Of a stretch of 64,000 nt of DNA, positions 7,179-64,000 are shown one piece after another (within the stretch, counting starts at the first letter, position 1; every line of letters starts with the position of its first letter). This DNA comes from an uncultured Clostridia bacterium (GTDB taxonomy: Bacteria > Bacillota > Clostridia > Christensenellales > CAG-138). The stretch spans positions 1 to 64,000 of the forward strand of contig CALVWJ010000003.1 in NCBI GenBank assembly GCA_944366945.1, read 5' to 3'. Below the pieces are notes generated by a model that was not told the origin of the DNA, searched no databases, and saw nothing but the letters and a program-made list of their open reading frames with translations. The position numbers were made by a program, and so were the translations under genes.

Positions 7179-7301
7179 CCCCTTATCCTCCTTGCATAGA
7201 TACCCGCGCATGTACAGTGCAAAGCCCAAACCTCTGGCGCGCATGAACTGAAACATCAAAAGATGCTCCGAAAATTGCAGAAATATATAGAAATACCGTC
7301 T

Positions 7302-8579: not shown

Positions 8580-8631
8580 AACGGTTTAACGAAAAATTTC
8601 ATAATTACAGGATTCGTTTTTCTTGGTGCTG

Positions 8632-9852: not shown

Positions 9853-9878
9853 AGTTTTTCCTTAAACCTAAACCAGCA

Positions 9879-11246: not shown

Positions 11247-11255
11247 ACTTTCTCC

Positions 11256-12215: not shown

Positions 12216-12235
12216 CCTAACCTCCATCAATCGCC

Positions 12236-13204: not shown

Positions 13205-13216
13205 CGTGTTTCCCCC

Positions 13217-14095: not shown

Positions 14096-14100
14096 AGCAA

Positions 14101-15102: not shown

Positions 15103-15213
15103 CGCTTGACTCCTTTGGATAGAATGCCGGCTCCAGCCGGACTGCTAATGCAGCTGAAGGGCACTCAGCATCAAACTGGAATGTCCTTCAGCTTTTGCAA
15201 CAGGATGGGTCAA

Positions 15214-16812
15214 TTACGCAGTAAATTCAATTTCAGCAAAATCGGGTACGCCGGATGCAACAAAGTCAAAGTTGCCAATGTTTGCGCGGGCGCCGTAGCC
15301 GGAGAGAGGATATGCCAGGGGAAGAATGTAGAGCTTCTCCCAAAGATAATCCTGCAGCTCTTCATAGATCTTAATGCGGTCTTCCATGGCGTAGGTGCGT
15401 TCACCTTGATCGAGCAGGTCTTGAATGTGCTGGTCGTTATGGCGCAAGGAAATAGTCCTTTCAAGCGGCCAAGCAGAAAGCGCAACCGCTGGATCAGAGA
15501 TAGACGAACCATTTGCCATTACCGTCATGGGGAGTTCACCGTTGTTGTTCATAGAAGTGAACGTGGCAAGGTCTACCATTTCAATCGTGCATGTAATGCC
15601 TACTTCGCTGAGCATGCTCTGAATGATTTCGATGCACGCATTGTAATACTGCTGCTGGAACGTTACAAACTTGACTTCAAGGCCATCGGCATAACCTGCT
15701 TCAGCAAGCAGCTCTTTGCTCTTTTCGGGATTGTATTCCCAAGGGCCAACTTTCTTGTAGCCCGGGATACTACGGGCAATAAAACCGTCAGCAGCATCAG
15801 CCTGGCCTTGGTAAGCGGTCTTTGCAACCGCTTCTACATCGATTGCATAAGCAATCGCTTTGCGGATCAATTCATTGCCATAAAGCTCCATGGAATTGTT
15901 GAAGCAAAGGTAGGTCATGCTCATAGAGTTACCGGTAAGCATCTGCGTTTCAGGATTCTCTTCCAAACGAGTCCAATCAACCGGCGAGATTTGGAACGCG
16001 ACGTCCACGCCGCCAGTTTCAAGCTCTACCGTACGGGAAGATGCTTCCAGGATAATACGGAAAATTACGTTGTCAAACGCAGGCTTCTCCCCCCAATATT
16101 GGTCAAAGGCAGTAAGCTCAATCCTATCGCCGTTGACCCAGTTTTTGAACATCATGGGACCAGTACCAACTGGAGCCCGGCCGAATGCATCCGCACCCAT
16201 GGACTCAAAAGCAGCCTTGCTCAAAATTGCACCGCGATAGCTTGCCAGGCCTTCCAGGAGGGGAGCATACGGATAGAGAAGCTTTAATTCCACAGTTTGC
16301 TCATCAAGCGCTTTGGTGTTTTCCACGTCAATCGCACCAAAAAGTGTACTTGTAAAGGAGCTGGTCGCACCATAGGTCAAGGAGAACACAACGTCATCCG
16401 CGGTCATCTTGTTCCCATCGTGGAAATAAACATCGTCACGCAGGGTGATTTTGATAGTAAGATCATCAACAGTCTCATAACCAGTAGCAAGCCAAGGGAT
16501 CAGCTCGCCATTTTCGGATTTGAACAGGGATTCGAAAATTGGTTCCGAGCTGATAAAAGTAGTTTCATGAGACGCTGCATAGGGGTCAATCGTCTGGGGT
16601 TCTGCTTGAATCGCAACAATTAAGTTTTCTTTGCGGATTTCAGTTGCAGGATCAGATCCTTCAGGTTCTTGCCCATCTGGAGCAGGCGTCGCAGCTTCAT
16701 TTGTTGCGTCCGGAGAGGATGTGTTTTCCGGAGCGGGTGTAGAGGGTTCTGAGCAGGCTATGACGCTCATGAGCATCATAAAGGCCAAAGCAAGAACAAG
16801 TAGCTTTTTCAT
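15214..16812 (-). CDS. Peptide-type ABC importer substrate-binding lipoprotein (OppA/DppA-like, SBP family 5)
   Basis: A 532-residue lipoprotein with a signal peptide and lipobox near SVIAC19, a Ser/Pro/Glu-rich linker, then an SBP_bac_5 fold: NLIVAIQAEPQTIDPYAA, LATGYE, ITLRDDVYFHDGNKMTADDV, and GTGPMMFKNWVNGD. Such proteins capture peptides, opines or other organic solutes outside the membrane. GGAGGA precedes the ATG. It leads the transporter run and has its own leader with 10-base tandem repeats. The solute is unknown; the downstream enzymes argue for a carboxylate- or sulfur-containing compound over a plain peptide, but that is inference. Confidence 0.93.
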   Translation of the reverse strand: MKKLLVLALAFMMLMSVIACSEPSTPAPENTSSPDATNEAATPAPDGQEPEGSDPATEIRKENLIVAIQAEPQTIDPYAASHETTFISSEPIFESLFKSENGELIPWLATGYETVDDLTIKITLRDDVYFHDGNKMTADDVVFSLTYGATSSFTSTLFGAIDVENTKALDEQTVELKLLYPYAPLLEGLASYRGAILSKAAFESMGADAFGRAPVGTGPMMFKNWVNGDRIELTAFDQYWGEKPAFDNVIFRIILEASSRTVELETGGVDVAFQISPVDWTRLEENPETQMLTGNSMSMTYLCFNNSMELYGNELIRKAIAYAIDVEAVAKTAYQGQADAADGFIARSIPGYKKVGPWEYNPEKSKELLAEAGYADGLEVKFVTFQQQYYNACIEIIQSMLSEVGITCTIEMVDLATFTSMNNNGELPMTVMANGSSISDPAVALSAWPLERTISLRHNDQHIQDLLDQGERTYAMEDRIKIYEELQDYLWEKLYILPLAYPLSGYGARANIGNFDFVASGVPDFAEIEFTA

Positions 16813-16860
16813 ATGTGTCCTCCTGTTTTTTAAATAAAATCTGAATAACCAGATTTATTT

Positions 16861-16889
16861 CATAACGCAGCATAACGCATCATAGCGCA
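16861..16889 (-). repeat. Three tandem 10-base repeats in the binding-protein leader
   Basis: CATAACGCA occurs at 16861-16869 and 16871-16879, with CATAGCGCA at 16881-16889. They lie 49-77 bases upstream of the binding-protein start, a likely promoter position. The helical-turn period suggests a regulator site. An imperfect hairpin (about 16832-16860) follows towards the gene. Confidence 0.45.
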
Positions 16890-16963
16890 TTTGTCGCCTA
16901 AAAATTTCCTGCCTAACCAACTTAAAAGCGTAAAGGCTTGCCTTGTTTTTAAGCAGATAATGC

Positions 16964-18253
16964 TCAGCACAAGGTTATTTTAGCACCACAAGACTGCATT
17001 TTTTGGTAAAAGCCAGGGAAAGTGACGCTCGCGCATTCAGCAGACTGAATATCTGTATACCCCTCTGCAGATAAGGCAGCTACGGTAAGCGCCATTGCAA
17101 TGCGGTGATCACCATGGCTGTCCTGCAGACAACCGTGCAGTTTTTTTCCTCCATGGATTGTAATTACATTTTCTGTTGCCGAGATGCTGGCTCCCATGCG
17201 GGAGAGCGCATCTACCATAACAGAAACACGATCGGTTTCCTTGAGCCTTGCTCCGGCTACGTTATCCAATATCGTAGTTCCCTCTGCCATGCAACCTGCT
17301 ACACACAAAATTGGGAGAGCATCGGGAGTGTTTTTCAGATCCATGCGTATGCCATGCAACTGATTTCCACCGCGGATGGAAAGGGTTCCTGCTTCAACGT
17401 GTTTTTGGATATTCGCGCCCATCTCTACCAGATGATCGATGATAATTGCATCGCCTTGGCTGTCGTTGAAATCCATATTGTGAATCTTGAGTTCTGATCC
17501 AGAGATCAAAGCGGCCACAGTTGGGAAAGCTACGCTTGACCAATCGCTGGGCATATATTTATCAAATGGCTTGTACTGTTGCCTGCCTTTAATTTCAAAA
17601 AACTTATGTTCAGCTTCGTCATAAGTTATTTGGATCCCAGCTTCTTTTAGCCATTTGATGGTCATATCCAAATAAGGAATTTCGGCCGGATGGTCTGTCG
17701 TGATGCGCATATCTCCGTCACACATCGGTGCAGCAATCATCAGCGAAGAGATATATTGTGAAGTTGTGCAGGGCACATTCACTTCTCCGCCATGAATCGG
17801 CCCTTTGATGAAAAACGGTGCGCATCCATTGCCGCTGCGTGTAGTAGAAGACTGAGCACCAAGTTGATTCAAAGCATTAAGAAGCGGTTGAACAGGACGC
17901 CTGCGAATAGATTGATCTCCAGTAAAAATCGTATAATCTGGCAGCAACGCTGCAATGGATGTCATGAAATATAACGTTGTACCAGAGTTGTCCACGTTGA
18001 CAACATCATCGGGCGTTTTGAGGCCATCTATTGGCCCATCTACAATCCAAACCCCTTCTTCTGTTGCGATAGTGGAGCCAAACTGCCCGGCGATGCGCAT
18101 GGCAGCTTTGCAATCATCGCTTAATAACGGATTGCGGATATAGGAACGCCCACCTGCAAGCGTCGCAATAATTAATGCCCGAATGGTATGGCTTTTCGAG
18201 CTGGGGACGCTAATTTCTCCTTTTATAGGGCCAGGATTAATTTTTGCAATCAT
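16964..18253 (-). CDS. aroA: Divergent EPSP synthase homologue (AroA-like)
   Basis: EPSP synthase moves the enolpyruvyl group of PEP to shikimate-3-phosphate. The 429-residue product keeps SSKSHTIRAL (Lys20, Arg25), GDQSIRRRPVQ, TTSQYISSLM, PSDWSSVAFP with the catalytic-type Asp, ARLKETDRVSVM and HGDHRIAM. One hallmark is changed: the NAGTAxR/NSGTTxR motif reads NSGTTLYF, so the conserved arginine is Tyr95. The protein may therefore handle a different substrate or simply be a divergent type. AAGGAGG precedes the ATG at 18253; a longer frame to 18286 lacks this. It begins 16 bases after aroE, so the two are co-transcribed. Confidence 0.87.
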   Translation of the reverse strand: MIAKINPGPIKGEISVPSSKSHTIRALIIATLAGGRSYIRNPLLSDDCKAAMRIAGQFGSTIATEEGVWIVDGPIDGLKTPDDVVNVDNSGTTLYFMTSIAALLPDYTIFTGDQSIRRRPVQPLLNALNQLGAQSSTTRSGNGCAPFFIKGPIHGGEVNVPCTTSQYISSLMIAAPMCDGDMRITTDHPAEIPYLDMTIKWLKEAGIQITYDEAEHKFFEIKGRQQYKPFDKYMPSDWSSVAFPTVAALISGSELKIHNMDFNDSQGDAIIIDHLVEMGANIQKHVEAGTLSIRGGNQLHGIRMDLKNTPDALPILCVAGCMAEGTTILDNVAGARLKETDRVSVMVDALSRMGASISATENVITIHGGKKLHGCLQDSHGDHRIAMALTVAALSAEGYTDIQSAECASVTFPGFYQKMQSCGAKITLC

Positions 18254-18269
18254 GTGAACGAAATCCTCC

Positions 18270-19139
18270 TTATGCTTTGCTGCCAATGCTTTGTTCTAAA
18301 GTTTGCCGCATTAAATCCACAGGTGCCGGTTGCCCGGTCCAAAGCTCAAACTGAGCCGTGCCTTGGTAAAGCAACATCCCGAGTCCATTGAAGGTAGTGC
18401 ATCCACACTCTTCAGCATCAGCTAAAAAACGTGTAACCGAGGGATTATAGGCAGCATCAAATGCTGTCATACCAGGATGGAAAATCGCCTTATCTACAGG
18501 AGATTCACCAACATGTGCCCCCATTCCGACACCAGTAGCATTTAGGATTAGGTCTGCAGGCTCAGCTTCCCTTTGTAATTTCGCCTGCTGATCCCACGGG
18601 ATCATAGTAGCAACTGGAGAAAACCTGGTGTTAATATCCTGTACCAGTTGTTCGCTTTCCCAATCGAATAGACTACTGATAATGATTTTTGAAGCGCCTT
18701 GATAAGCAAGCGAACTGCAAATCGCCCGTGCGGCTCCACCTGCGCCTAAGCATACAAAAATGCTTTCGGAAAGCGGCTTTGCATAGTGTTCGTTGAGTGA
18801 ATGTAAAAAACCGATGCCATCCGTGTTGTAGCCCTTCAAACGGCCATGCTTGTCTACGACAACTGTGTTGACCGCCCCCATTTTTTGGGCGAATTCATCC
18901 AATTCATCCAACAAACTAATTACGGCAATTTTATCGGGTTTTGTAACGCCGAACCCGACAAAGTTCATGCACCGGATTGCAGAAACAATCGTAGAAAGTG
19001 ATTGTTCCGTAGTTTCAATGGGAAAGTATTCGTAGTCCAGGCCACAAGAATGGAACGCAGCATTTTGCATAAGTGTGGATAATGATTGTGCCAAAGGGTT
19101 ACCCAATAAGGCTACAAGCTTTGTGGAAACCGTTATCAT
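18270..19139 (-). CDS. aroE: Divergent shikimate dehydrogenase homologue (AroE-like)
   Basis: AroE reduces 3-dehydroshikimate with NADPH. The 289-residue product keeps the catalytic Lys70 and Asp107 (in NTDGIG), the dinucleotide motif CLGAGGAARA and a YNPSVT-type loop. The substrate-pocket motif usually GxPIxHSxSP reads GNPLAQSLST, the NVTxPxK motif reads GVTKPDK (Gly64 for Asn), and the SP end is ST. These residues line the shikimate pocket in known structures, so specificity may differ. GAGGT precedes the ATG. It opens the leftward transcript facing a LysR-type gene, which likely regulates it. Confidence 0.85.
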   Translation of the reverse strand: MITVSTKLVALLGNPLAQSLSTLMQNAAFHSCGLDYEYFPIETTEQSLSTIVSAIRCMNFVGFGVTKPDKIAVISLLDELDEFAQKMGAVNTVVVDKHGRLKGYNTDGIGFLHSLNEHYAKPLSESIFVCLGAGGAARAICSSLAYQGASKIIISSLFDWESEQLVQDINTRFSPVATMIPWDQQAKLQREAEPADLILNATGVGMGAHVGESPVDKAIFHPGMTAFDAAYNPSVTRFLADAEECGCTTFNGLGMLLYQGTAQFELWTGQPAPVDLMRQTLEQSIGSKA

Positions 19140-19262
19140 GCATACACCTCGTGAATATGAAATTGAAGAATTATCCTAGTGCTAAAGAGGGGTAAACTAT
19201 ATTGAAAACGGATTGCCTACGGAAAGAAAAACTTCGATGATTGAAACCGCTAGCTCCCCTCA

Positions 19263-19303
19263 AACGTAATACTCAATCTTTATATGGATTATATCATTAC
19301 GTT
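19263..19303. promoter_or_regulatory. Spaced inverted repeat in the aroE/LysR divergent region
   Basis: AACGTAAT (19263-19270) and ATTACGTT (19296-19303) form an 8-bp inverted repeat 25 bases apart. It could be a dyad bound by the LysR protein encoded to the right. Confidence 0.35.
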
Positions 19304-19336
19304 CTAACATATAATATAGGGTTTTAGCGGAAAAAG

Positions 19337-19351
19337 ATGAATTTAATTCAT
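19337..19351. promoter_or_regulatory. Palindrome ATGAATT-T-AATTCAT, candidate LysR operator
   Basis: A perfect 7-1-7 palindrome lies 62 bases upstream of the LysR start. This fits an autoregulatory LysR-type site shared by both divergent genes. Confidence 0.45.
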
Positions 19352-19412
19352 TGATATATTAAAAACATTGCCAAGATTAGGCGAATGCGGTAAAATAACA
19401 TGAGGTGATTTC

Positions 19413-20330
19413 ATGAATTTGCAGCAGTTAACATATTTTTGTACGATTGTTCAAAAGAAGAGCTATACGCGTGCATCTGAGCATCTTCGGGTAACACAAT
19501 CAACATTAAGTCACTCGATTAACGAATTGGAAAGAGAGCTAAATGCTCCATTGCTTATCCGGAGCGGGAGAAGTATCACGCTTACGCCGTTTGGTGAGAT
19601 ACTTCTTCAATATGTAAAGCCAGCGCTTTCCCTTTTAGACGAAGCGCAATCCAAGCTAAAAGATATGACCGATCCAGAGTCAGGCATGATTTCTGTGAGT
19701 TATTTCAGCTCTTTAAACGATTTGGTGATTTATGCAATCTCGCGCTATTATGAAGAATCCGGAAAAATCCAGCCACATTTTAGGTTTTTCCCAGCGTCTA
19801 CCACTGAGATTGAAGAGGCCATTATAAATGGGACAAGCGACTTGGCTTTTACAACGCAGATCGACAACCCGATGTTTGAATATCATACCATCGGCTATCA
19901 TGAAACGGTGATTATTGTTTCCAATCGGCATCCGCTTGCACGTTATAAGGAAATTCATCTTTCGCAATTGAGGAATGAGAACATTATTGCATATGAAGAA
20001 CAGTGCCAGATTCGTGGGTATATAGATCAGTTATTTGCAGATGCTGGTTTTAAACCCAAGGTAATATTTGAAACTACGAATGATAATATAATTCTAAGCT
20101 CGGTATCCGCAAATTTTGGGATTGCGCTGGTACCCAAACCACTGACGGAGCATGCTAGGCCAGTAAAGGTGATCAAAATTAAGGATAAAATGCCCCCCCG
20201 CCCAATTGTGTTGGCACGGCGGAAATCACGGTATCTATCGCGCGCTGCTGAGAGCTTTGCCAATTATGTCATTCGGAACGCAGCGCTGTTCGATGAGTAT
20301 TTGAAATCTACAAATTCAATTTCAAATTAG
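19413..20330 (+). CDS. LysR-family transcriptional regulator next to the AroE/AroA homologues
   Basis: A 305-residue LTTR. The winged HTH is at about residues 3-60 (LQQLTYFCTIVQKKSYTRAS then STLSHSINELERELNAPLL). The effector-binding domain has ISVSYFSSLNDLVIYAISRY, ETVIIVSNRHPLARY and GIALVPKP. GAGGTG precedes the ATG. It is transcribed away from the AroE homologue with 273 bases between, the standard layout for a regulator of that transcript. The inducer is unknown. AT content matches the block to its left. Confidence 0.93.
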   Translation: MNLQQLTYFCTIVQKKSYTRASEHLRVTQSTLSHSINELERELNAPLLIRSGRSITLTPFGEILLQYVKPALSLLDEAQSKLKDMTDPESGMISVSYFSSLNDLVIYAISRYYEESGKIQPHFRFFPASTTEIEEAIINGTSDLAFTTQIDNPMFEYHTIGYHETVIIVSNRHPLARYKEIHLSQLRNENIIAYEEQCQIRGYIDQLFADAGFKPKVIFETTNDNIILSSVSANFGIALVPKPLTEHARPVKVIKIKDKMPPRPIVLARRKSRYLSRAAESFANYVIRNAALFDEYLKSTNSISN

Positions 20331-30671: not shown

Positions 30672-31973
30672 TCACTCATTGCGGATGGCAGCGAGCGGGG
30701 AAAGGCGCATTGCGCGGATGGCCGGATAAAGCCCTGAAATGAGCGCCACTAGAATGGAGAACGCAACTGCGCCAAACGCGAGATAGAGCGGAATGGAGCT
30801 GTGCATGCCCGACTGGGCCAAAAACTTGTTGAGCACGATGGAAAGCGTATAGCTTACGCCCAAACCAAGCGCGCCGCCAAAGAGACCAATATAGGCGGAT
30901 TCGGTTAGGAACATCCCGGCAATGTTGGACATCCTGCACCCAAGCACCTTGATGATGCCGATTTCCTTCGTGCGTTCATAGATGCTCATCATCATCGTGT
31001 TCATGATGCCGATAGCGGCAACGAGGAGTGAGACGCCACCGATGGCACCTAAAAGATACTGCGTTTGCTTGATGCTCTGCTCCGATTGCTCAATCCATTC
31101 CTGCAGACATTGGGTGCCATAGCCCATGTCTTTAATCGTTTTGTTTACGCTTTCAACAGCATCTGTATCCGTGCATTTAACGATGACTTCGTTGTAATTG
31201 CTGGTATCAATGTTTACGAAATCCTTATTCTCCTTGGCCAGCTTTTTTAGTGCTTCAATATCCATGAGGCAATAATAGGAGAATTCGTTACCGGATGCCG
31301 CAGTTACGCCTGTTGCGTTGAGCCGGTACATTTTGCCGGGCGTTCTCCCTTCCATGCTGTCTCCTGGATTCCCATAGATGTTGCTTGAATCAAACGTAAG
31401 CTGGAAGCGGGAATCCCAAGTCACTTTTGGATTCCCATCTTTGTCCACTGCTTGCTTTCCCGTGTTTGGGTCGTAAAAATACCCATATTGGAAGAGGTCC
31501 GAGCCAAACACAATGTCGTAAGTGCCACCTGTGGTGCGCGCGCTGGGCATCTCGCCTTCTGCAAGCGTTATGCCGAATTCCGATGCAACGGAGGTATCAA
31601 TCCCCATAATGCTAATATCTGCAACGTACCGCCCGCTTTTTACCATGCCCCAGGTTGTGATGCGGGGCATGATTACTTCTACACCAGGGATCAGCTTGAA
31701 CTGCTCCACAGTCTTTTTCGTGAGGTCTTTTTCCGTGGACGTGTAATTGCCATTCGCGTCAACGGAAGAGCTCCAGCGCGTAACGGTGATGTTCGTCATG
31801 CTGCCCATCTGGGAATAACTCTCGATCATGGCTTCACGCATCCCAATGCCAAGCGACACCATCACTACAATGGAGCTCGTGCCGATGACCATGCCGAGCA
31901 CGGTCAAAAATGCGCGCAGCTTGCGCCGCCACAGGTTTAGAAACGCTGTGCGGAGCATGTCGGAGAATTTCAT
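30672..31973 (-). CDS. MacB/FtsX-type ABC transporter permease
   Basis: A 433-residue permease of the MacB fold. One N-terminal helix (FLTVLGMVIGTSSIVVMVSL) is followed by a large extracellular domain of about 230 residues (SSSVDANGNYTSTEKDL...), then three C-terminal helices with IYERTKEIGIIKVLG and PLYLAFGAVAFSILVALISG. MacB-type units do not carry solute across the membrane but transmit motion to outer domains. The start overlaps the ectodomain gene by four bases (ATGA-type coupling), so the three genes form one operon. Confidence 0.9.
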   Translation of the reverse strand: MKFSDMLRTAFLNLWRRKLRAFLTVLGMVIGTSSIVVMVSLGIGMREAMIESYSQMGSMTNITVTRWSSSVDANGNYTSTEKDLTKKTVEQFKLIPGVEVIMPRITTWGMVKSGRYVADISIMGIDTSVASEFGITLAEGEMPSARTTGGTYDIVFGSDLFQYGYFYDPNTGKQAVDKDGNPKVTWDSRFQLTFDSSNIYGNPGDSMEGRTPGKMYRLNATGVTAASGNEFSYYCLMDIEALKKLAKENKDFVNIDTSNYNEVIVKCTDTDAVESVNKTIKDMGYGTQCLQEWIEQSEQSIKQTQYLLGAIGGVSLLVAAIGIMNTMMMSIYERTKEIGIIKVLGCRMSNIAGMFLTESAYIGLFGGALGLGVSYTLSIVLNKFLAQSGMHSSIPLYLAFGAVAFSILVALISGLYPAIRAMRLSPLAAIRNE

Positions 31974-33823
31974 ACGTCCTCCAGCTCCTTCGCGCGTTTC
32001 TTTTTAAGGAGGATGATTGCAACGGCTGCACCTGCAACTACGACGACGCCAATGCCAACCCACACCCAGGGGAAGTCGCCTGTTTCGCCGCCTATCACTT
32101 CTACGCCGGGATCGATCATGCCAGGATCCCCGCCGATGGGAAGGCCGGTTTCGGGATCGATCATGCCAGGATCATCCATGGGGATCTCCTCATTGACAAA
32201 CAGGTTCAAGGGCAGCCGCTCTTCCATCTGCTCACCGTAAACATCCTCATAAGTAATGACGATTTCGCCCGCAATATCACCGCCTACGGAAGGGATGATT
32301 GAAAAGTCTGCGCGCATGGTGCTGCCTGCAGAGACCGTGCCTCCAAAATAAGTTTCTTCCATGGCAAGGCCTTCGCCATCCACATCGACCATGCAGTTAT
32401 AGATCGGTGCTTTTCCCATGTTATAAAGCGCAAAGTAGATCGCGCAGCTCTGGCCCACCCAGGGGTCATCGTAAATCACCGGGTCGTCAAGCTTAATGCG
32501 AATGCGCTGGAGGATGGGGATGGCAATGGTTTCCGTTGCGGTATAAGAGGCGATGTTGGAGGCGCCCTCATAGGAAAAATCAAGCTGCAACGTATAGGCT
32601 TTGGCTTCCGTATCGGGTGCGCTTTGCATGGAGATGGTTTCCGTGTGCGTTTCGCCCTTGCCGATCTTTGCGATGTAAAGCGTATTGGAGCCGTTGTTCG
32701 CAGGCATCAGCTTGCCGACCTCAGCCGTGTCGCTGATACTGATCTGGATGTTCTGCACAGCCTCTTCTTCCGAGGTGTTCCTAAGCGTGAAGGTTACGTC
32801 AAACTGCTCGCCAGCATAGATCTTTTCCGTGCTGATGGAATAGGAATCCAGGATCACCTTGGGCTTGGAAACGGGCTGCGTGCCATCCGGCCCGGTTTCG
32901 GCCTCATAACCCTTGATTACATTTACATAGATGCTGATGGTCATGCTCTGGGGGGTGTTGGAAGTGCTCCAATCCTCCGTCCAGGAGATGGTGAAATCCA
33001 CCTTTTTTACGCCAGCGGTTACTTTTTCGTTGAACTTGAGGTTGCTGTAGCGGAATTCGAAAATCGCACCACGGTAAAGGCTACCGGAAAGGCCCTGCGT
33101 GTAATCGAGCGCGGTAATCTCAAAGGGGAAAGCATCGAGCTCCGTAGAAAGCACGGGCGTAATGGTAACGTTTGAAATGTTGCTGCGCAGGCATTGCAGC
33201 GGGATGCGCACCACCACGCTTTTGCCCGCGTTGCCGGAGGGCGCGGGAACGAGGTTGCCTTCTGCATCATAGGAAGAAAGGCGGAACGGCGGATCCACGG
33301 TTTCCGTGGTGTCGCCGCCGGGAGTATTATTGCCACCCGCATCATCGCCGCCGACGTTAATGCCAAAGTTTACAGATATGTCTTCATATACTTCAAATGT
33401 ATTAGAAGGTGTTGTAATACTTTTGAATTTTAAACCTAACGTATATGTAGCGGAATCGGGATGGTTTTGCTCATATCTATACATAAGCAAAATTTGCTTC
33501 GTACTCTTTGCGGGGATTTCCTTGTTAAACTGATGCGATGAATTTTCGTCTTCGAATAAACTATCCTTCTCTGTGCTATTGCGAACACTATTAAGTTCCA
33601 CCGCTTCGTCACTATTATTGACTATCGTAAACGGAACATAAATATGTGTAGTGGATAGCGTAGCAGTACCCGGAGTAACCGTTACATTGCTTGCGCTTGC
33701 AGGCACGGGCGTGGTGGCTTCGCCGGAATCGGACGGGCCTTCCGCCAATGCGCCTGCGCTGAGTGTGAACGTAAAGAGCAATGCCAGTGCGAGCGCCAGT
33801 GCCCGCTTTGCAAAATGATTCAT
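31970..33823 (-). CDS. Membrane-anchored extracellular CARDB/S-layer-like protein of the MacB-type unit
   Basis: A 617-residue protein with a signal peptide (about residues 1-27), Thr/Pro-rich linker, at least three beta-sandwich-like segments resembling CARDB/COG1361 domains (VILDSYSISTEKIYAGEQFD, PVIYDDPWVGQSCAIYFALY), and a C-terminal helix FPWVWVGIGVVVVAGAAVAI followed by KKKRAKELEDV. Just before the helix are two near-copies of DPGMIDP. The domain assignment is by pattern, not by search. It overlaps both the ATPase and the permease genes by four bases, so it should work with the transporter, perhaps as an outer effector or receptor. No enzyme motif was seen. Confidence 0.72.
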   Translation of the reverse strand: MNHFAKRALALALALLFTFTLSAGALAEGPSDSGEATTPVPASASNVTVTPGTATLSTTHIYVPFTIVNNSDEAVELNSVRNSTEKDSLFEDENSSHQFNKEIPAKSTKQILLMYRYEQNHPDSATYTLGLKFKSITTPSNTFEVYEDISVNFGINVGGDDAGGNNTPGGDTTETVDPPFRLSSYDAEGNLVPAPSGNAGKSVVVRIPLQCLRSNISNVTITPVLSTELDAFPFEITALDYTQGLSGSLYRGAIFEFRYSNLKFNEKVTAGVKKVDFTISWTEDWSTSNTPQSMTISIYVNVIKGYEAETGPDGTQPVSKPKVILDSYSISTEKIYAGEQFDVTFTLRNTSEEEAVQNIQISISDTAEVGKLMPANNGSNTLYIAKIGKGETHTETISMQSAPDTEAKAYTLQLDFSYEGASNIASYTATETIAIPILQRIRIKLDDPVIYDDPWVGQSCAIYFALYNMGKAPIYNCMVDVDGEGLAMEETYFGGTVSAGSTMRADFSIIPSVGGDIAGEIVITYEDVYGEQMEERLPLNLFVNEEIPMDDPGMIDPETGLPIGGDPGMIDPGVEVIGGETGDFPWVWVGIGVVVVAGAAVAIILLKKKRAKELEDV

Positions 33824-34566
33824 GCTGTTTCTACCCCCTGCTTAACATCTGTTTTTTTCTTGGAATCCGAATGGTCGTTGTATTCAATGCTTACAACCTT
33901 CCCATCCAGAATTTGGATTACCTTGTCCGCAAATTCCGCCATGTGTGGATCATGCGTGACCATAACGAGCGTTTTGTTCTGCGCGCGCATAACGTCGCAA
34001 ATGGAGTTCATCACATCGTCTGAAGTGTTGGAATCCAAATTGCCCGTGGGCTCATCTGCAAACACGATCTCCGGATCCGTCACCAGCGCGCGCGCGATGC
34101 CAACGCGCTGCTGTTGACCGCCGCTCATTTGGGACGGTTTGTGTTTCATGTGCGTTGCAAGCCCCATGGTTTTGAGCGCTTCGCGGGCGAGCGCATTCCT
34201 TTTGCGCGCGGGCACACCGCGGAAAGACAGCGGGAACGCAACGTTTTCAAGCGCTGTATAATAGGGCATTAAATTGAAAGACTGGAATATAAAACCAACA
34301 TGCTTTTGCCGAAAAACGATCAGCTCGCTCTGCGTCATCTTATCGAGCCGTTTCCCCGCGATGACGATTTCGCCGCTCGTAACGTGTTCCAACCCAGCCA
34401 GCACATTGAGCAATGTTGATTTGCCCGAGCCGCTTCTTCCGATAATGCAGCAGATATCGCCGCGGTTAATCGTAAGATTGATGCCGCGCAACGCATGCAC
34501 GTCTACACTCCCCACATGGTAGACTTTTGTTACATTTCTTACTTCAATCAGTGGAACCTGCTCCAC
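33820..34566 (-). CDS. MacB-type ABC transporter ATPase
   Basis: A 248-residue ATPase of the LolD/MacB group: Walker A GRSGSGKS, Q-loop FIFQSFNLMPYYT, signature MSGGQQQRVGIARAL, Walker B IVFADEPTGNLDS and H-loop MVTHDPHMAEF. A GTG at 34566 is chosen because GGAAGGGGG lies about ten bases upstream. A longer frame to 34623 with another start is possible. It is first in the three-gene operon. Confidence 0.88.
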   Translation of the reverse strand: MEQVPLIEVRNVTKVYHVGSVDVHALRGINLTINRGDICCIIGRSGSGKSTLLNVLAGLEHVTSGEIVIAGKRLDKMTQSELIVFRQKHVGFIFQSFNLMPYYTALENVAFPLSFRGVPARKRNALAREALKTMGLATHMKHKPSQMSGGQQQRVGIARALVTDPEIVFADEPTGNLDSNTSDDVMNSICDVMRAQNKTLVMVTHDPHMAEFADKVIQILDGKVVSIEYNDHSDSKKKTDVKQGVETA

Positions 34567-34816
34567 AGGCAGCACACCCCCTTCCAATATTTCCAGTTTA
34601 CACCGGGGATTAAAAATATACAATTTAATAATTCATGAACCTTTTATCCCATAAATTGGGCATGGCATACTCCTTTTAAAAAAACGTAACACGCAAGGAA
34701 ATGGTTCCCGCAAAGCAGTTGATTTCACTTGTTTTTTCGATTACAATAATTTGGGCTTTTGCTCATGGGCAGGGAAAGGAAGGAACATCGCGATAGGCCC
34801 TCCGATGAGGAATTTC

Positions 34817-57840: not shown

Positions 57841-57916
57841 GGGGCATTAGCTCAGTTGGTAGAGTGCCACACTGGCAGTGTGGATGTCAGCGGTTCGAGT
57901 CCGCTATGCTCCACCA
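57841..57916 (+). tRNA. tRNA-Ala (anticodon GGC)
   Basis: A 76-base cloverleaf with encoded CCA. The acceptor stem has the G3-U70 pair that defines alanine tRNAs, the D-arm is AGCTCAGTTGGTAGAGT, the anticodon stem CCACA/TGTGG encloses loop CTGGCAG with U33 and anticodon GGC, and the T-arm has GGTTCGAGTCC. A strong terminator follows. Confidence 0.95.
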
Positions 57917-57918
57917 GG

Positions 57919-57951
57919 AAAACCGCCAAACTTCTAGGGTTTGGCGGTTTT
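57919..57951 (+). terminator. tRNA-Ala terminator
   Basis: AAAACCGCCAAAC pairs with GTTTGGCGGTTTT around a short loop, followed by CTTTTTGCTT. It begins three bases after the tRNA. Confidence 0.9.
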
Positions 57952-58007
57952 CTTTTTGCTTATAATCGCCGAAGAATCGCCCTGCCAGTGTATCGCCTGG
58001 CCCGATT

Positions 58008-59639
58008 TTAACCAAAGTGTGCGAATTCTTTTTCGGGCGTTTCGCCCATGAATTGAGCATAGGATACGTTGAATTTTATATCCAGCGTGTAGTCGCTGGA
58101 TACCGTTACCCGCGCAATAAGCGCGGAAGCAATCATCTTTTTAACCGGAAGCTCTGCCGTAGCATACAGCGCGCCCCAGCTTTGCAGCTGCTTTAACTGG
58201 GCCGCCGTTTCTTCGCAAAGAAGATCCACCCGCTGTACACTCCCGCTGGCTTCCTGGTACTGGGCTGTGGCGGCGGCAACCTTTTCCTCAGCAACCTTGA
58301 GCATCTCCGCCAATACGCTTTGGGGCAGTTTGCTTTCGCCCCGGATGATTTTGAAAACCTCGCTTTGCAGCTCCTGCATCTCCGAGGAGGCCGCATCCAG
58401 CTCTGCCTTGGCCTGCTGCTGCAAGGCTGCCGCTTCCGCAATCTTCGCCTCGCAACGCATCTTGACCAGCGGCTCCGCTGGCGCATCGGTGAATCTGGAA
58501 AAGATGCTGTAAAGCAGCCGGTCGATCACCTCGTCTATCTTTTTCGCCGTATAGCCGCTTTGACCAGTGCAAAGGGCACGGTGCCGTACCTTGTTGTAGC
58601 AGGCATAGCGGTGAATGCGGCTTACGGTGGTGCTGCCATCGGCATTTTTGTACTTCTTGGGGTTGGTGGTGGCCACCAGTTTGCCGCCGCAATGGGCGCA
58701 GTAGATGTTGCCGGAAAGCAGCGTTCCCCCAAAAGTGTGCCGGGGAACGGCACGCTGTTCCATATAGGCGGCAGAACGGGCTTTTAACAGTTCCTGGGCC
58801 CGGGCAAAGGTAACGTCGTCGATGATCTGTAATTCCGGAACAGGCTCGGAAATATATTCCCCGCACTTGATACGGCCCGTATAGGTAACGCGGCCCAGCA
58901 TATGGCGTATGGTGGTGTTGGTGAATACGCCGCCGCTGCGGCAGGAGACGCCCATGCTGTACAGATGATTGCCAATGGTATGGGTCCCCATGCCCTCGTT
59001 GACATATTTATCGAAGATGAGTCGGACGATGGCAGCTTCTTGGGGCAGCACCCGCAGGTCTTTTACCGGCGCGCCGTGCTTGTTCATCCGGCCCAGGAAC
59101 ACGCTTTCGTAGCCATAGGGGGCTGCGCCGCCATGATAATGGCCTTCTTCAGCGATTTGTGCCAGGCGGGTGCGAATGCGGATAGAGGTCTTTTCGCTTT
59201 CGCCAGCAGCCTGCCAGAAGCGTATGTAATTGGTGAGCTTGTCCACATGGCTTTCAAACCGCTGTTCGCCTTCTTTTACGCTCCATACCCGGATGCCCTG
59301 CTTGACGAACCACTCTACAATAAACGGGGTTTCGCTTTCTATGCGGCCCAGCCTGTCAAACATAAAGACCAGCAAAATATCAAATTCGTGCCGCAGGGCC
59401 TTCTGCTGCAAGATCTGAATCGCATCCCGGTCTTTGGCGGAAACCTTGAATCCGGATACCCCTTTTTCAGAAAGTTCGTCTACGAAATTCCAGCCCTGCT
59501 GGGCAATGTAGGCATGGCAAGCCTGGCGCTGCATGGGAATATCGTCCCGAAGTTTATCTACCTGGCCCAGGGTGGATACCCGGTATAAACAGAATACGCG
59601 GTTTTGCATCTCTGGATGATGGAAGGCTACATTTTGCAT
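58008..59639 (-). CDS. Large serine recombinase
   Basis: A 543-residue site-specific recombinase. The N-terminal resolvase domain has the active-site Ser22 in FCLYRVSTLGQ and the helix E/catalytic pattern VFMFDRLGRIE. The middle Recombinase domain has GGAAPYGYES and VRLIFDKYVNEGMG. A zinc ribbon (YCAHCGGKL, then C...C near ALCTG) and a coiled coil (AEAAALQQQAKAELDAASSE) follow. Such enzymes integrate or excise elements. GAGG lies seven bases before the ATG. Its 3' end is about 90 bases from tRNA-Ala, so the element boundary is probably close. Confidence 0.93.
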   Translation of the reverse strand: MQNVAFHHPEMQNRVFCLYRVSTLGQVDKLRDDIPMQRQACHAYIAQQGWNFVDELSEKGVSGFKVSAKDRDAIQILQQKALRHEFDILLVFMFDRLGRIESETPFIVEWFVKQGIRVWSVKEGEQRFESHVDKLTNYIRFWQAAGESEKTSIRIRTRLAQIAEEGHYHGGAAPYGYESVFLGRMNKHGAPVKDLRVLPQEAAIVRLIFDKYVNEGMGTHTIGNHLYSMGVSCRSGGVFTNTTIRHMLGRVTYTGRIKCGEYISEPVPELQIIDDVTFARAQELLKARSAAYMEQRAVPRHTFGGTLLSGNIYCAHCGGKLVATTNPKKYKNADGSTTVSRIHRYACYNKVRHRALCTGQSGYTAKKIDEVIDRLLYSIFSRFTDAPAEPLVKMRCEAKIAEAAALQQQAKAELDAASSEMQELQSEVFKIIRGESKLPQSVLAEMLKVAEEKVAAATAQYQEASGSVQRVDLLCEETAAQLKQLQSWGALYATAELPVKKMIASALIARVTVSSDYTLDIKFNVSYAQFMGETPEKEFAHFG

Positions 59640-59713
59640 GATTTATCCTCGCTTTCTTATATAGCGGCGCTGCGAGCCAATTCATGCTTCAAACCGAAAA
59701 ACCTAAATATACA

Positions 59714-59726
59714 GTTTTCAAGGTGC
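59714..59726 (-). repeat. Leader motif GCACCTTGAAAAC, copy 1
   Basis: On the minus strand GCACCTTGAAAAC lies about 75 bases upstream of the recombinase start. An identical copy is at 60220-60232. Confidence 0.6.
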
Positions 59727-59764
59727 ATATGCGCTTCTGCGCGTAACAGTATTATCATGGCAAT

Positions 59765-59920
59765 CTAGGCAAAAGGCAAATGTGCGAGGCTATCTTCTTT
59801 GGTTTGCGCATAGTGGTTGAGCAGAATGGTCCGCACGGCGTCTATCACGGCGGGATTAGGTTCTGTGATGAAGGAAAGCGCAACCATCCCTTCGGCAAGT
59901 TTGATAACTTTATTCTCCAT
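59765..59920 (-). CDS. Small recombinase-associated protein, 51 residues
   Basis: A 51-residue frame beginning MENKVIKLAEGMVALSFITE and ending in TAG, with AGGAGG six bases before the ATG. It lies 125 bases upstream of the recombinase on the same strand. The charge pattern and good ribosome binding site make it a likely gene. Small proteins of this kind accompany recombinases in clostridial elements, but I cannot name a family. Confidence 0.68.
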   Translation of the reverse strand: MENKVIKLAEGMVALSFITEPNPAVIDAVRTILLNHYAQTKEDSLAHLPFA

Positions 59921-60353
59921 GAAAAGCCTCCTAAAGTACGATATACTTTATGTGAGGAACCCTGCCGCGCCGCAAAAAGCACAGCAGAATCCGCAGCAAG
60001 TAAAAGGAAATGCCTGGACCGGCCGGTTCCGGCCGCGCTGGGATTGCACCACCCCCCTTGCAGCGGGCTGCATTCTGGGACTTAACCTCGACTATGCAGG
60101 CGTATCATTATGCCGCTTTACAAGCCGTATCGCTGGCGCCTTGGGTTTTGCCCTACCCGATCCAGCTGCGGAGGCGGTCTTGTAAAGCGGGGTTGTTGTA
60201 TCCAGGCAATCGGTATGCGGTTTTCAAGGTGCTGTTAAGGACAATGGCGGGGGATACGTCCTGCCTTACACCGGCAAACGCTTCCCCTGTTCACCCAGCA
60301 AAATATGTCCCTCTATATATCCATACATTTTTGGGGCAAATTCGAGGGGTCTA
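59921..60353. other. Gene-free stretch upstream of the small protein
   Basis: About 430 bases without a supported gene. It holds the second GCACCTTGAAAAC copy and GC-rich inverted repeats (GGCCGGTTCCGGCC). Plus-strand frames here have odd composition and no ribosome binding site. On the minus strand it could be a long leader of the recombinase operon. Confidence 0.4.
60220..60232 (-). repeat. Leader motif GCACCTTGAAAAC, copy 2
   Basis: Identical to the copy at 59714-59726; on the minus strand it lies 300 bases upstream of the 51-residue gene. Confidence 0.6.
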
Positions 60354-60779
60354 TCACAAATTTTTTTGCAGGAATTTTCCCATGCTTCTTAGCGCCCGGC
60401 GAATGCTCTCTCGTATGGAACGTTCCCTTACGTTTTCTAAGCGGGCAATACGGCTATAGCTCATGCCTAAAAAGAAGTGGGCGTATACCCGCTGCCGCTG
60501 CTTGTCTGAAAGGGAGGCCAACGCTTGATATAGCTGTTCCTTTTCATAGTTTGCCGCCAGAAGGGTATAAGGGCCTGCCGCCGTGCTTCCGGGCAGCTCT
60601 CCGCGCGCCTCCGCCCACTCCAGGGAATAGTAGGCTTTGTTCCGAAAAACGCGCACCTAATAGGCAACCTCGCCGGTTTTCCCTTCATGCAGCGCAGCCG
60701 CGACGGCATCCGGCAAGGGGATTGGATGATCTCGGTGATATATCGTAGGATAGTAATCCCGCAAATTGATGGTTTTCAT
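60354..60779 (-). pseudogene. Sigma-70 region 4-like protein of a mobile element, in-frame TAG stop
   Basis: Read through, the frame starts MKTINLRDYYPTIYHRD and ends SMGKFLQKNL, with a helix-turn-helix-like KQRQRVYAHFFLGMSYSRIA. From memory this resembles a short sigma-70-like protein found in clostridial elements. An amber codon (60657-60659) after GEVAY breaks the frame; in relatives I remember, this position is often Gln in AYQRR, so a single C-to-T change would explain it. The second part alone can begin at a GTG right after the stop. GAGGAGG precedes the first ATG. The function may be lost or use readthrough. Confidence 0.72.
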
Positions 60780-61120: not shown

Positions 61121-62887
61121 CTACTTTATCCGCATCATCCTTGTAAACCTGGTTACCACGATCACCGCAACTATAATGGCGATCACTGCGAAGGCCACCA
61201 GCACGCTGATCCACCATTGGCTGGCAGCCTGCCTGGCTTCCGCCTCCGCAGCCTTTTCCGCTTCGGTCTTTTCCCCCTCGATCACCGGCTGCCGGATCTC
61301 GGTGGAGACCTGGGTTTCCTCCGTGTAAGAAATCCCCTGGTCGTCCTGGTAGGAGATGGTGTAGACGCCGGTGGTGGGGCCGTAGCTCTCCGTGTAGCCC
61401 TCGGTCATGCTCAGCATCCCTATGAATACCTTCATTTCCCCATAGCCAGCTTCCCCGGGCGGGATGTCCCCCAGGAATACGCTGCTGGTGGGGAACAGCC
61501 CTGCGCCAGTCAAGGTCAGCGTCACGTTCCGCAGGGTGCTTTTCCCCAGGTTAAATACGTTGGCCGGCAGGGATACTGTCTCTCCTGCGACGATCTCTTT
61601 GGGCAGTGATACCGGATCATATCCCATAACAGCAGGTTGGGTCACTTGGATGAGGAAGGTTCGAGTACTAGTGTAAACGCCCCCATACAGGTCTACATAG
61701 TCCAGGGTGATGTAAAAGGGCTGCTGCCCTGCCAGCACATCCTTGGCTGTCTTCATCTGGAAGGTCACCTCTGTGCTGTCCTCGCTGGCGATATTCTCAA
61801 GATGCAGGGCGTTGTTGGTCTCCACCGCTACGATTCCTGCCGCCTCGCTGCCGTAGGTCAACCGCACCGACCGGGCCCGGATGGCTCCGAGATTCTCTAT
61901 GGTAACATTAACGGAGAAGGTCTCCTCACCGCCAACCGTCTCTGGCTCTACCGTACAGGCGGAAATAAATAGTTCCGGCTTTTCTACCTCCTGCCGGGGG
62001 GCTTCATTGGGGTCGGGCGGCGTCTTGCCGTCGGTAATGGTTACATATACGGTGAAAGTCTGGCTGGCCGGGTTGCCAGTGACATTTAGGTAATCTGCCC
62101 GCAGCTCCACCGGATAGGTGCCGTTGTACCGCTCTGTCAAGAGGGGGATATCCAGGCAAAAGATGTATTTCCCATACCCGGCGGCGGTTTGGCTGTAGTT
62201 GCCGTAGACAAAGGGGCTGGACTCTAATTCCCCCAAATTGGCTGTAATGGTCACCCGGCCGTCGTAGGTCTGGCCCAACAGGGGCAACACAATGTATACT
62301 CTGCCGTCCAGCACTGTGGGCACATATCCCTCGCCATAGGTGAGGGCCATGCCGGGATACAGGGTATAGCTGTCAATCGTCAGCTGGCCTGCCACTGGCG
62401 GGGGCGTGGGGGTAGGCTCCGCCAAGTTGGGGTCCTGGCCGTCTGAGACCACCACCTGCACGGTGAAGGACTGGGCATAGGCCGTACCTCCAGCGTCTGT
62501 GTAGGCACATTGGAATTCCACTGGATAGGCGCCGTTCTTTCGATCCGCCTTGAGGGGCAAGTTCAAGGTCACGGGAAAGATCCCTTTATCCGGAGCCCAG
62601 TTTACGTTGAATTCGTAATTTCCATAGGCAAAGGGACTGTCCTCTCCGGTGTCGAATACCGGGGTGACCCGCAGGGAAGAGATGCCCTCCTGGGCAGTGG
62701 TAAGGGGCAGGACGATATGAGCGGTATTGTTGCCCACTGTAGGCACATAGCCGTTGCCATAGGTCTGCCCCTCAATGTCGTAGTCTGTATCGATAGACAA
62801 CGCACTGCCCTCTTCCGCCAGGGCGGAATAGGCGAAGCCCAGCAGTAAGGTTAGAAACACAACAAACCCAATGATCATTTTCTTCAT
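61121..62887 (-). CDS. Membrane-anchored extracellular protein with tandem beta repeats, ABC-linked
   Basis: A 588-residue protein with a signal peptide (to about residue 24), two related repeats of about 125 residues (YGNGYVPTV...SPFAYGNY...NGAYPVEF and YGEGYVPTV...SSPFVYGNY...NGTYPVELR), CARDB-like segments with CTVEPETVGGEETFSVNVTI, and a C-terminal helix (WWISVLVAFAVIAIIVAVIV) plus a basic tail. Pro/Thr-rich linkers lie between. Like the 31970-33823 protein, it is an anchored ectodomain encoded with an ABC transporter. It overlaps the ATPase gene by four bases. No enzyme motif was seen. Confidence 0.72.
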   Translation of the reverse strand: MKKMIIGFVVFLTLLLGFAYSALAEEGSALSIDTDYDIEGQTYGNGYVPTVGNNTAHIVLPLTTAQEGISSLRVTPVFDTGEDSPFAYGNYEFNVNWAPDKGIFPVTLNLPLKADRKNGAYPVEFQCAYTDAGGTAYAQSFTVQVVVSDGQDPNLAEPTPTPPPVAGQLTIDSYTLYPGMALTYGEGYVPTVLDGRVYIVLPLLGQTYDGRVTITANLGELESSPFVYGNYSQTAAGYGKYIFCLDIPLLTERYNGTYPVELRADYLNVTGNPASQTFTVYVTITDGKTPPDPNEAPRQEVEKPELFISACTVEPETVGGEETFSVNVTIENLGAIRARSVRLTYGSEAAGIVAVETNNALHLENIASEDSTEVTFQMKTAKDVLAGQQPFYITLDYVDLYGGVYTSTRTFLIQVTQPAVMGYDPVSLPKEIVAGETVSLPANVFNLGKSTLRNVTLTLTGAGLFPTSSVFLGDIPPGEAGYGEMKVFIGMLSMTEGYTESYGPTTGVYTISYQDDQGISYTEETQVSTEIRQPVIEGEKTEAEKAAEAEARQAASQWWISVLVAFAVIAIIVAVIVVTRFTRMMRIK

Positions 62888-63537
62888 CCTTCATACCCCC
62901 TTATGGCAGTCATGACCCCGGCGTCCATTTCGCATACCGTGTCGCACAGGGCGTCGATATCTCCTTGATTGTGGCTGGCCAGCAGAATGGTCTTGCCCGC
63001 CGCCTGTAGTCCCCTAATCAGTTCCCGCATTTCCCGTACCCCGTGCTTGTCCAGACCGTTCAAGGGCTCATCCAGGATCAAGAGGCTGGGGTCCTCCATA
63101 ATCGCCTGGGCGATGCCAAGACGCTGACGCATACCTAGGGAATACTTGCCTACGGGCTTTTTCATGTTGGGGTCCAGGCCCACTCGGCGGATGGATGCTG
63201 CAATTTCCCTAAGGCCAATCTTCCTGTTTAGGGAAGCCAATATCTCCAGGTTCTTCATCCCGCTATACTGGGGCAAAAACCCCGGCGTTTCGATGATCAG
63301 CCCCAGGTTCGGGGGAAAGTCCACATCCACTCCTACCCGTTGGTCGTTTACGGTAACCGTCCCATCAGTGGGGACAAGGAACCCGCAGATGCACTTCATG
63401 AGCACCGTTTTGCCGCTTCCGTTGTTGCCCACGATGCCGTGAATTTTTCCACGTTCAAAGTCCCGGGTTACGCTATGGAGCACCCGCTCCTGCCCAAAGT
63501 CCTTGGATAGGTTCTCCACTGAAATCGCAACGTCCAT
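62884..63537 (-). CDS. ABC transporter ATPase
   Basis: A 217-residue ATPase with Walker A GNNGSGKT, signature YSLGMRQRLGIAQAI, Walker B LLILDEPLNGLD and H-loop LLASHNQGDID. It is of the export/ABC-2 type. GGAG precedes the ATG three bases after the permease stop. It pairs with the anchored ectodomain protein. Confidence 0.92.
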   Translation of the reverse strand: MDVAISVENLSKDFGQERVLHSVTRDFERGKIHGIVGNNGSGKTVLMKCICGFLVPTDGTVTVNDQRVGVDVDFPPNLGLIIETPGFLPQYSGMKNLEILASLNRKIGLREIAASIRRVGLDPNMKKPVGKYSLGMRQRLGIAQAIMEDPSLLILDEPLNGLDKHGVREMRELIRGLQAAGKTILLASHNQGDIDALCDTVCEMDAGVMTAIRGYEG

Positions 63538-63540
63538 TTA

Positions 63541-64000
63541 TCAGTTCTCCGTTCCACTGAATACAAAATTGTAGTTCCGCACCGCCCGAAGCGACAGAAC
63601 AAAGCACAGGACGATGAGTATTGCAAATATAAGATACGTCTGCCATAGCCGGGGCAGCAGGTCGTAGCCGAAGTTGTGCATATGGTAAGTGGCGTGGTTC
63701 AACGGGGACAGCCACCCCACCGCCACATTGGCTTTATACATCAGCTCATCCGGGAGCTGGAAGATAGACTGAATGGTTTGTGGATTCAGCAAAAACCCAT
63801 ACAGGGAAAATCCCACCGCTCCGACCACGCCGCCTAGCTGGCCCTTATGGATGTTGCAGGTCAGCATGACAAAGGAGAGCAGCATGGCGTATAGGAGCAT
63901 GAGAAGGAAGATGGCGGCCATGCATTGGTAGGGCCGGCTCATCTCCAGGGTTTTGACCAAGGCAGGCAGAGCCACGGCCTGGCCTGCCCCAGAATAGCCC
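63541..64000 (-). CDS. ABC transporter permease, C-terminal part (runs off right edge)
   Basis: The minus-strand frame stays open to the right edge; 153 codons are visible with about five hydrophobic segments (FLLMLLYAMLLSFVMLTC, YLIFAILIVLCFVLSL). The first residues inside the window (GYSGAGQAVALP) continue without a stop, so the true start lies outside. It fits an ABC-2-type permease of the ATPase to its left. Confidence 0.85.
   Translation of the reverse strand, partial: GYSGAGQAVALPALVKTLEMSRPYQCMAAIFLLMLLYAMLLSFVMLTCNIHKGQLGGVVGAVGFSLYGFLLNPQTIQSIFQLPDELMYKANVAVGWLSPLNHATYHMHNFGYDLLPRLWQTYLIFAILIVLCFVLSLRAVRNYNFVFSGTEN

Follow-up and report, generated by a model that had tools for sequence, protein, structure and literature searches.

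The YtrBCDEF system of Bacillus subtilis is the nearest described operon that holds two ATP-binding cassette (ABC) transporters. YtrB goes with YtrC and YtrD, and YtrE goes with YtrF, which has a MacB-like domain; the operon affects competence, the formation of biofilms, and the thickness of the cell wall (PMC8060467). In addition, a 2025 study linked the system with the lipid II cycle rather than with survival of antibiotics and gave the repressor YtrA and the small YtrG as members of the operon (PMC12772383), and a structural survey lists YtrB2CD and, among the type VII exporters, YtrE2F2 (PMC11466899). In this study, we describe an ABC-2-like (type V) transporter unit and its anchored ectodomain protein, ECT2, which are encoded at the end of a 64,000-nucleotide stretch (the window) of contig CALVWJ010000003.1 from an uncultured Clostridia bacterium. 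A reading made earlier from the letters of the window (the original prediction) had proposed that two ABC families are paired there with one ectodomain design. Our analysis goes beyond it in three points: the ectodomain family is common to three ABC types, composite operons form a bridge between the two units of the window, and a degenerate MacB-type half appears, from its codon substitution rates, to be kept by selection.

The composite operons are like Ytr in pairing the same two kinds of transporter (type V and type VII), a likeness drawn from published descriptions. The Ytr gene order differs from theirs. Furthermore, the available parts of the Ytr sources mention no CARDB ectodomain or DUF6034 lipoprotein, and the window locus itself has the ABC-2 set only, with both intact sets found in 8 of 80 relatives. 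The first ABC unit of the window and the corresponding half of the composite operons also resemble the type VII systems MacAB and FtsEX, because they have FtsX and MacB_PCD domains and a separate extracytoplasmic protein. However, the partner here is an anchored CARDB rod, and Pfam found no MacA-type adaptor or peptidoglycan hydrolase domain. Meanwhile, the module of ECT2 is like LanFEG in its small ATPase, its two permeases of about 260-300 amino acids (aa), and its operon lipoproteins, but it differs in having a CARDB ectodomain and lipoproteins of the DUF6034 kind.

Results

Comparison of the Two Ectodomains

The first unit (30672-34623) has the MacB-type gene order ATPase-ectodomain-permease (ATP1, ECT1, and PERM1; table 1), and PERM1 was matched by FtsX with 70.4 bits (cut-off 25.5) and by MacB_PCD with 61 bits (cut-off 27). 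In the second unit, the genes of ECT2 and of a LanF-like ATPase (ATP2) share 4 bases. ATP2 matched ABC_tran (PF00005, E = 5e-27), and its top NCBIfam match was TIGR03740, the lantibiotic protection ATPase, with 166.7 bits, below the cut-off of 309.75. ECT2 passed CARDB (PF07705) with E = 4.5e-7 and 30.5 bits (gathering cut-off 22.7). The neighbouring genes beyond the window edge were taken from the same genome (G000, contig C3). There, the permease gene cut by the window end (PERM2b) is complete (L005:2542-3561) and is preceded by that of a second permease (PERM2a, L005:3435-4226); the rest of the operon, mostly beyond the window, holds these two permeases, four DUF6034 (PF19499) lipoproteins, and a small peptidoglycan-binding protein. 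PADLOC returned no specific anti-phage defence model, and ATP2 gave ATPase-domain similarity only.

Profiles of ECT1 and ECT2, made from 17 and 18 relatives, were aligned by hhalign with probability 100 and E = 1.3e-46 over 377 columns at 20% identity. The aligned part runs from the last repeat domain through both CARDB-like domains to the transmembrane end. Judged by these profiles, both ectodomains of the window belong to one family. The claim of one design in two ABC units therefore stands, since the comparison by which unrelated folds might have come to light gave this match.

In the window's family, 101 genomes were searched and 60 neighbourhoods were fetched, and an ectodomain match was present in 55 of the 101. 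ECT1 was accompanied by MacB-type ATP1 and PERM1 in 18 of 18 loci (the window included), with the gene order kept. For ECT2, a LanF-like ATPase lay within the stretch in 41 of 45 loci, in 35 of the 41 within 400 bases; the stretch examined held none in the other 4. No ECT2 locus of the family had ATP1 between ECT2 and its ATPase. Thus, the conserved ABC-ectodomain linkage, which the original prediction had made its second point of attack, was recovered for both units. When the family genomes were sorted into ECT2 and ECT1 carriers by match score, DUF6034 was present in 37 of 38 genomes with ECT2 versus 21 of 63 without it (Fisher P = 1.7e-11, uncorrected for kinship). No such association was seen for ECT1 (10 of 24 genomes with ECT1 versus 48 of 77 without).

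Composite Operons and the Degenerate ATPase

A species-level genome collection was scanned with the profile of a highly conserved permease (A4), a scan that is blind to loci lacking this permease. It gave 251 relatives; the top 80 loci were analysed and classified by hidden Markov models (HMMs) built from the first loci. Named isolates among the 80 were Clostridium zeae, C. paridis, Bacillus niameyensis, Christensenella intestinihominis, and Hominifimenecus microfluidus. We found a composite operon with one shared ectodomain and an intact ATP1 in 8 loci, in the order permease-permease-LanF-like ATPase-MacB-type ATPase-ectodomain-MacB-type permease. At the same position, 23 loci carried a degenerate ATP1 homologue, and in 31 loci of the window type the ectodomain followed the LanF-like ATPase with no ATP1. 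Two more (L136 and L167) probably hold a degenerate ATP1 below the threshold and stand outside the 23; 7 loci had too little room, and L147, L153, and L163 had no ATP2 in the stretch.

In the 23 degenerate proteins, the signature SGG and the H-loop histidine were kept in 0, the Walker B DE in 1, the Q-loop glutamine in 2, and the Walker A in 3, and two proteins still exceeded the Pfam ABC_tran cut-off of 25 (84.9 and 26.8 bits). Every motif was present in 8 of 8 intact composite ATP1 proteins. For ATP2, all 119 aligned rows keep the signature (118 with L and one with M), and 114 keep the common Walker A. By HMM, only part of the 23 loci have a PERM1 homologue behind the ectodomain (15 usable).

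For the degenerate ATP1, the pairwise ratio of nonsynonymous to synonymous substitution rates (dN/dS) was 0.17-0.52 in 11 of 12 pairs, the twelfth being saturated. By comparison, it was 0.07-0.12 for ATP2 in the same pairs, 0.10-0.30 for the ectodomain, and 0.24-0.57 for the PERM1 of the degenerate operons. By these values, selection still acts on the degenerate MacB half at the protein level, and it is looser there than on the live pump. As far as these codon rates tell, the ATP1 gene is kept under purifying selection even though its ATPase motifs are lost.

Phylogenetic Analysis and a Third ABC Architecture

A first ectodomain tree used 74 of 106 rows, with near-identical rows left out along with hits that scored below 200 bits or were shorter than 280 aa; a second used 109 ectodomains, with more near-identical rows and L139 removed. 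All trees were quick searches with support from the Shimodaira-Hasegawa-like approximate likelihood ratio test (SH-aLRT) only and no bootstrap. In the 109-ectodomain tree, solo MacB units, a third type described below, composite-intact, composite-degenerate, and window-type loci formed separate groups. The partner type changed 7 times along the tree (minimum 6; shuffled mean 62.8). Furthermore, the PERM1 of the 22 usable composites, intact and degenerate, formed one clade with support 100, in which the degenerate subclade had support 99.

A survey of 398 genomes of the phylum found the ECT1-type ectodomain in 64, and 40 neighbourhoods, mostly of the best ectodomain matches, were fetched. By HMM, a MacB-type ATPase and permease lay near in 34, the permease only in 4, and neither in 2. 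Five of the 40 (L207, L213, L219, L220, and L224) had a large FtsX-type permease instead. Pfam typing of the two intact proteins showed two FtsX stretches in each; in L213 and apparently in L224, the protein is split over two open reading frames (ORFs). Together with the MacB-type and ABC-2-like loci, these double-FtsX loci bring the number of ABC architectures that use the ectodomain family to at least three. The wider class of ABC-plus-ectodomain machines that had been suggested is thereby extended by a third type, and the composite operons go further than the suggestion did. In addition, L204 (4323-9923, (-)) and L209 (3346-9018, (+)) have a MacB unit in which the permease gene lies between two different ectodomain genes.

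Strong matches to the A4 permease among the 398 genomes were limited to the window's genome. Six others had weak matches, which are distant sister ABC sets or unclear cases. A sister set in a distant genome (L187, 5192-11895) includes a lipoprotein, two permeases, a LanF-like ATPase, and BlaI-like and M56 genes, with the ectodomain absent. In the literature searched, with most subscription journals outside the search, no paper pairs CARDB and an ABC transporter with BlaR1 or MacB; among the matches listed for a pseudo-ATPase with an ABC transporter or FtsX, none has the term pseudo-ATPase.

Architecture of ECT2

The signal peptide, tandem repeats, CARDB-like segments, and C-terminal helix with basic tail that had been read from the letters were borne out by the ORF, Pfam, a repeat test, and a structure model (table 1). 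The two repeats, of about 125 residues each, aligned with a score of 203 (30-156 versus 169-296), compared with 32 ± 6 and a maximum of 58 in 200 shuffles. The AlphaFold model of ECT2 has a mean predicted local distance difference test score (pLDDT) of 84.8 and a predicted template modelling score (pTM) of 0.47, for which reason the domain orientation is unsure. It shows four beta domains (about 50-147, 191-284, 306-416, and 421-532), followed by a helix (542-587). ECT2 is thus modelled as a string of Ig-like domains, closest to the CARDB and transglutaminase-C types. The best single-domain structural match (Z 13.1) is generic Ig-like and says little about function. Sequence searches of solved structures with profiles A1, A2, A4, and A6 gave no informative relative; antibody chains topped the A2 search with a match that begins at the A2 signal peptide, and were set aside as uninformative.

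The QWW-bearing transmembrane end is well conserved. Small ORFs consisting of an ECT2-like transmembrane segment and basic tail alone (SQWWIS...RMK) were seen in L084 (about 7660-7796, (+)) and L085 (about 5428-5550, (-)), where they start at the extreme end of a DUF6034 gene. They may be a remnant or a single-pass microprotein, and more tail-only matches were present in G066, G071, and G094.

DUF6034 Lipoproteins and Regulators

DUF6034 was present in 75 of the 80 loci, and the window's genome gave eight DUF6034 matches, which we count as seven genes because one gene accounts for two of them in pieces. PF19499 was the only Pfam family above cut-off in the lipoproteins. The DUF6034 model (pLDDT 83.9, pTM 0.83) was compared by VIA-align with the candidates from Foldseek. 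An uncharacterised Eubacterium rectale protein (5coz) came first with Z 21.3, followed by YycH (11.6 and 10.3), the C-terminal domain of YpeB (11.2), and YycI (10.8), and then by a drop to 6.8. DUF6034 may therefore have a YycH/YycI/YpeB-like fold, with Z of 10-12 as the likeness; this is a lead, since Foldseek alone gave no significant match. It differs from those proteins in that DUF6034 proteins are lipoproteins, are often arrayed, and have no Pfam match to the YycH/YycI/YpeB families. YycH and YycI regulate the cell-wall kinase WalK, and YpeB regulates a spore-cortex hydrolase. No paper on DUF6034 was found within the literature covered. In L153 and L147, DUF6034 genes form arrays, with as many as 13 in 20.9 kb, and some family genomes have about 50 first-look candidates.

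Beside the module, two-component genes were found in 17 of the 80 loci and M56 genes in 6, DUF6034-fused in 3. The window's genome has an example. An ECT2 paralogue with 59% identity lies on its contig C5, together with a BlaI-like repressor gene, an M56 (BlaR1-type) peptidase-DUF6034 fusion, two permeases, and an ATPase. As in BlaI/BlaR1, the repressor gene, labelled BlaI-like by eye from sequence and position, overlaps that of the membrane peptidase, whose M56 domain scored 131.6 bits (cut-off 31). In contrast to BlaR1, DUF6034 takes the place of the sensor domain; Pfam detected no penicillin-binding domain, and NF000326 gave 91.2 bits, below its cut-off of 400. When the regions upstream of the BlaI-like gene and of the window operon on C3 were searched for BlaI-operator-like dyads, two loose matches came up, in L008; they have no chance estimate and are uninformative. 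A third DUF6034 locus (L197, G000:C4:28001-46000, 7593-12978) has two DUF6034 lipoproteins behind an apparent response regulator and histidine kinase, named by eye from likeness to Pfam-typed ones; no ABC genes adjoin it.

Genomic Surroundings

The original prediction had the wider class of machines carried by mobile elements. This is unsupported in general: serine-recombinase-like ORFs were found in only 5 of 144 loci scanned, with tyrosine integrases not sought, and the MacB-type ectodomain was present in 5 of 5 genus genomes examined. Beside the window operon, 57841-60656 holds a tRNA-Ala, a serine recombinase gene (-), and an isolated ORF for sigma-70 region 4, and is a possible island edge. 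One congener has the same kind of tRNA-Ala after the same radical-SAM gene and then different genes, so this stretch is variable in the genus. Comparison of the tRNA-Ala region with 59.6-85 kb of the contig gave no exact direct repeats of 13-30 bases, and hence no att site. Elsewhere in the window, 2001-20000 has a G+C content of 0.41-0.48 versus 0.50-0.57 in the rest and is possibly a foreign stretch.

Table 1. Features of the ECT2 and ECT1 Units, Their Surroundings, and the Paralogous Locus on Contig C5
Feature	Position	Strand	Basis or remark
ECT2, anchored ectodomain protein, 588 aa	61121-62887	(-)	ORF; Pfam PF07705 CARDB
Signal peptide, residues about 1-24	62816-62887	(-)	Read from sequence; model helix 2-18
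Tandem repeat unit 1, residues 30-156	62420-62800	(-)	Repeat self-alignment
Tandem repeat unit 2, residues 169-296	62000-62383	(-)	Repeat self-alignment
CARDB-like domain 1, residues 304-416	61640-61978	(-)	PF07705 at 304-381; model, structural matches
CARDB-like domain 2, residues 420-533	61289-61630	(-)	Model; aligned with ECT1 counterpart domain
C-terminal helix, conserved QWW, transmembrane segment, basic tail, residues 542-588	61124-61264	(-)	Sequence, model
ATP2, LanF-like ABC ATPase, 217 aa, intact motifs	62884-63537	(-)	PF00005; NCBIfam TIGR03740 best, below cut-off
PERM2b, ABC-2-like permease, C-terminal part; gene cut by window end (ORF 63541-63999)	63541-64000	(-)	ORF
PERM1, MacB/FtsX permease	30672-31973	(-)	PF02687, PF12704
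ECT1, homologous ectodomain protein, 617 aa	31970-33823	(-)	ORF; profile alignment with ECT2
ATP1, LolD/MacB-like ATPase, intact motifs	33820-34623	(-)	Pfam, NCBIfam, motif check
tRNA-Ala	57841-57916		Adjoins ECT2 locus
Serine recombinase	58008-59639	(-)	Adjoins ECT2 locus
BlaI-like gene overlapping M56 peptidase gene	G000 C5 = L006:3110-5963		DUF6034 as sensor part, not penicillin-binding domain

Discussion

We propose that the ECT2-bearing module is an envelope-stress machine around an ABC-2-like (type V) transporter with ECT2 as its accessory extracytoplasmic subunit, and that the ectodomain was first a MacB-type partner and was joined once into a composite operon. We regard this proposal as somewhat probable. 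The stress role is a best guess from the LanF-like ATPase, the lipoproteins, and the envelope-type regulators. ECT2 would be a membrane-anchored Ig/CARDB rod that reaches into the cell wall, and we infer that its transmembrane segment and basic tail would dock on the permease. At the membrane surface, the DUF6034 lipoproteins would sense a ligand or present it, and their signal could pass via BlaI/M56 or a histidine kinase. The LanF-like pump would then remove or flip its presumed substrate, a membrane-active compound or lipid.

The ectodomain may originally have been the partner of a MacB-type (type VII) unit, in the order ATPase-ectodomain-permease. This three-gene unit would have been joined to the DUF6034/ABC-2 module, and the result would have been a composite operon in which two transporters share one ectodomain. 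In one lineage, the MacB-type ATPase would have lost its catalytic motifs and been retained, and in the window's lineage the MacB half would have been lost and the ectodomain left. A single joining, with catalysis then lost in one line and the MacB half in another, is the simplest history.

Several observations weigh against this proposal. First, 6 of the 80 loci (such as those of Clostridium zeae and C. paridis) have no ectodomain despite at least 3 kb of room, so an ABC-2-like pump can exist without one. Second, the three ECT2-side lineages form an open fork, so the reverse order of changes is possible; the direction from composite to stripped rests on the SH-aLRT-only trees, and in the degenerate clade the branches of PERM1 are long and its letter make-up is odd. 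Third, the relaxed selection on the degenerate ATP1 relative to ATP2 would also fit slow decay. Fourth, the permeases of the ABC-2-like unit matched no Pfam or NCBIfam family, and they are called ABC-2-like because of their size, their hydrophobic sequence, and the ATPase type. Finally, Foldseek of DUF6034 against the PDB found nothing at E below 0.001, and a LanC-like gene (PF05147) had 0 matches in the window's genome, although immunity without synthesis is possible.

A bolder extension is that one ectodomain physically couples two mechanistically different ABC transporters into one envelope machine. Throughout one clade, the degenerate type VII partner would then be a pseudo-transporter that serves the live type V pump as a scaffold, passive or allosteric; the window locus would be the stripped end state, and the large DUF6034 arrays would give a changing ligand specificity. 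We offer this only tentatively, as a possibility that is rather doubtful.

The module could instead be a self-protection or resistance pump of the LanFEG kind, which expels a lantibiotic-like peptide, with DUF6034 proteins as LanI-like binders and an ectodomain that merely holds the lipoproteins or the peptide near the pump. TIGR03740 is indeed the closest NCBIfam family of the ATPase, one operon holds two permeases and lipoproteins, and two-component genes adjoin 17 of the 80 loci. However, the TIGR03740 cut-off was missed, no LanC-like gene accompanies the pump in the genome, the predicted lipoprotein fold may be YycH/YycI/YpeB-like, and there are as many as 13 lipoprotein genes per stretch. 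We consider this explanation unlikely.

It is more improbable still that the ectodomain is a generic surface protein, co-transcribed by chance with no ABC role and shuffled among operons by recombination. CARDB and Ig-like domains are promiscuous modules, and the structural matches are to generic Ig-like folds, as this explanation would have it; but the partner ABC type tracks the ectodomain tree with 7 changes against 62.8 by chance, the QWW transmembrane end is well conserved, and the overlapping gene order is kept. It is hardly credible that the window's two units arose independently and resemble each other through the commonness of CARDB domains: for all the low identity of the profile alignment, its E-value and its extent, from the repeat domain through the pair of CARDB-like domains to the transmembrane end, already contradict this, and composite operons bridge the two units.

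The poorly described ectodomain family is here tied to three ABC architectures. Its operons provide a natural series, with both transporters live, one dead, or one lost, in which the role of an extracytoplasmic adaptor and the retention of a dead half may be probed. In addition, DUF6034 gains a predicted fold and a genetic context of envelope signalling. Isolates that bear the module, such as Bacillus niameyensis, Christensenella intestinihominis, and Hominifimenecus microfluidus, make it testable.

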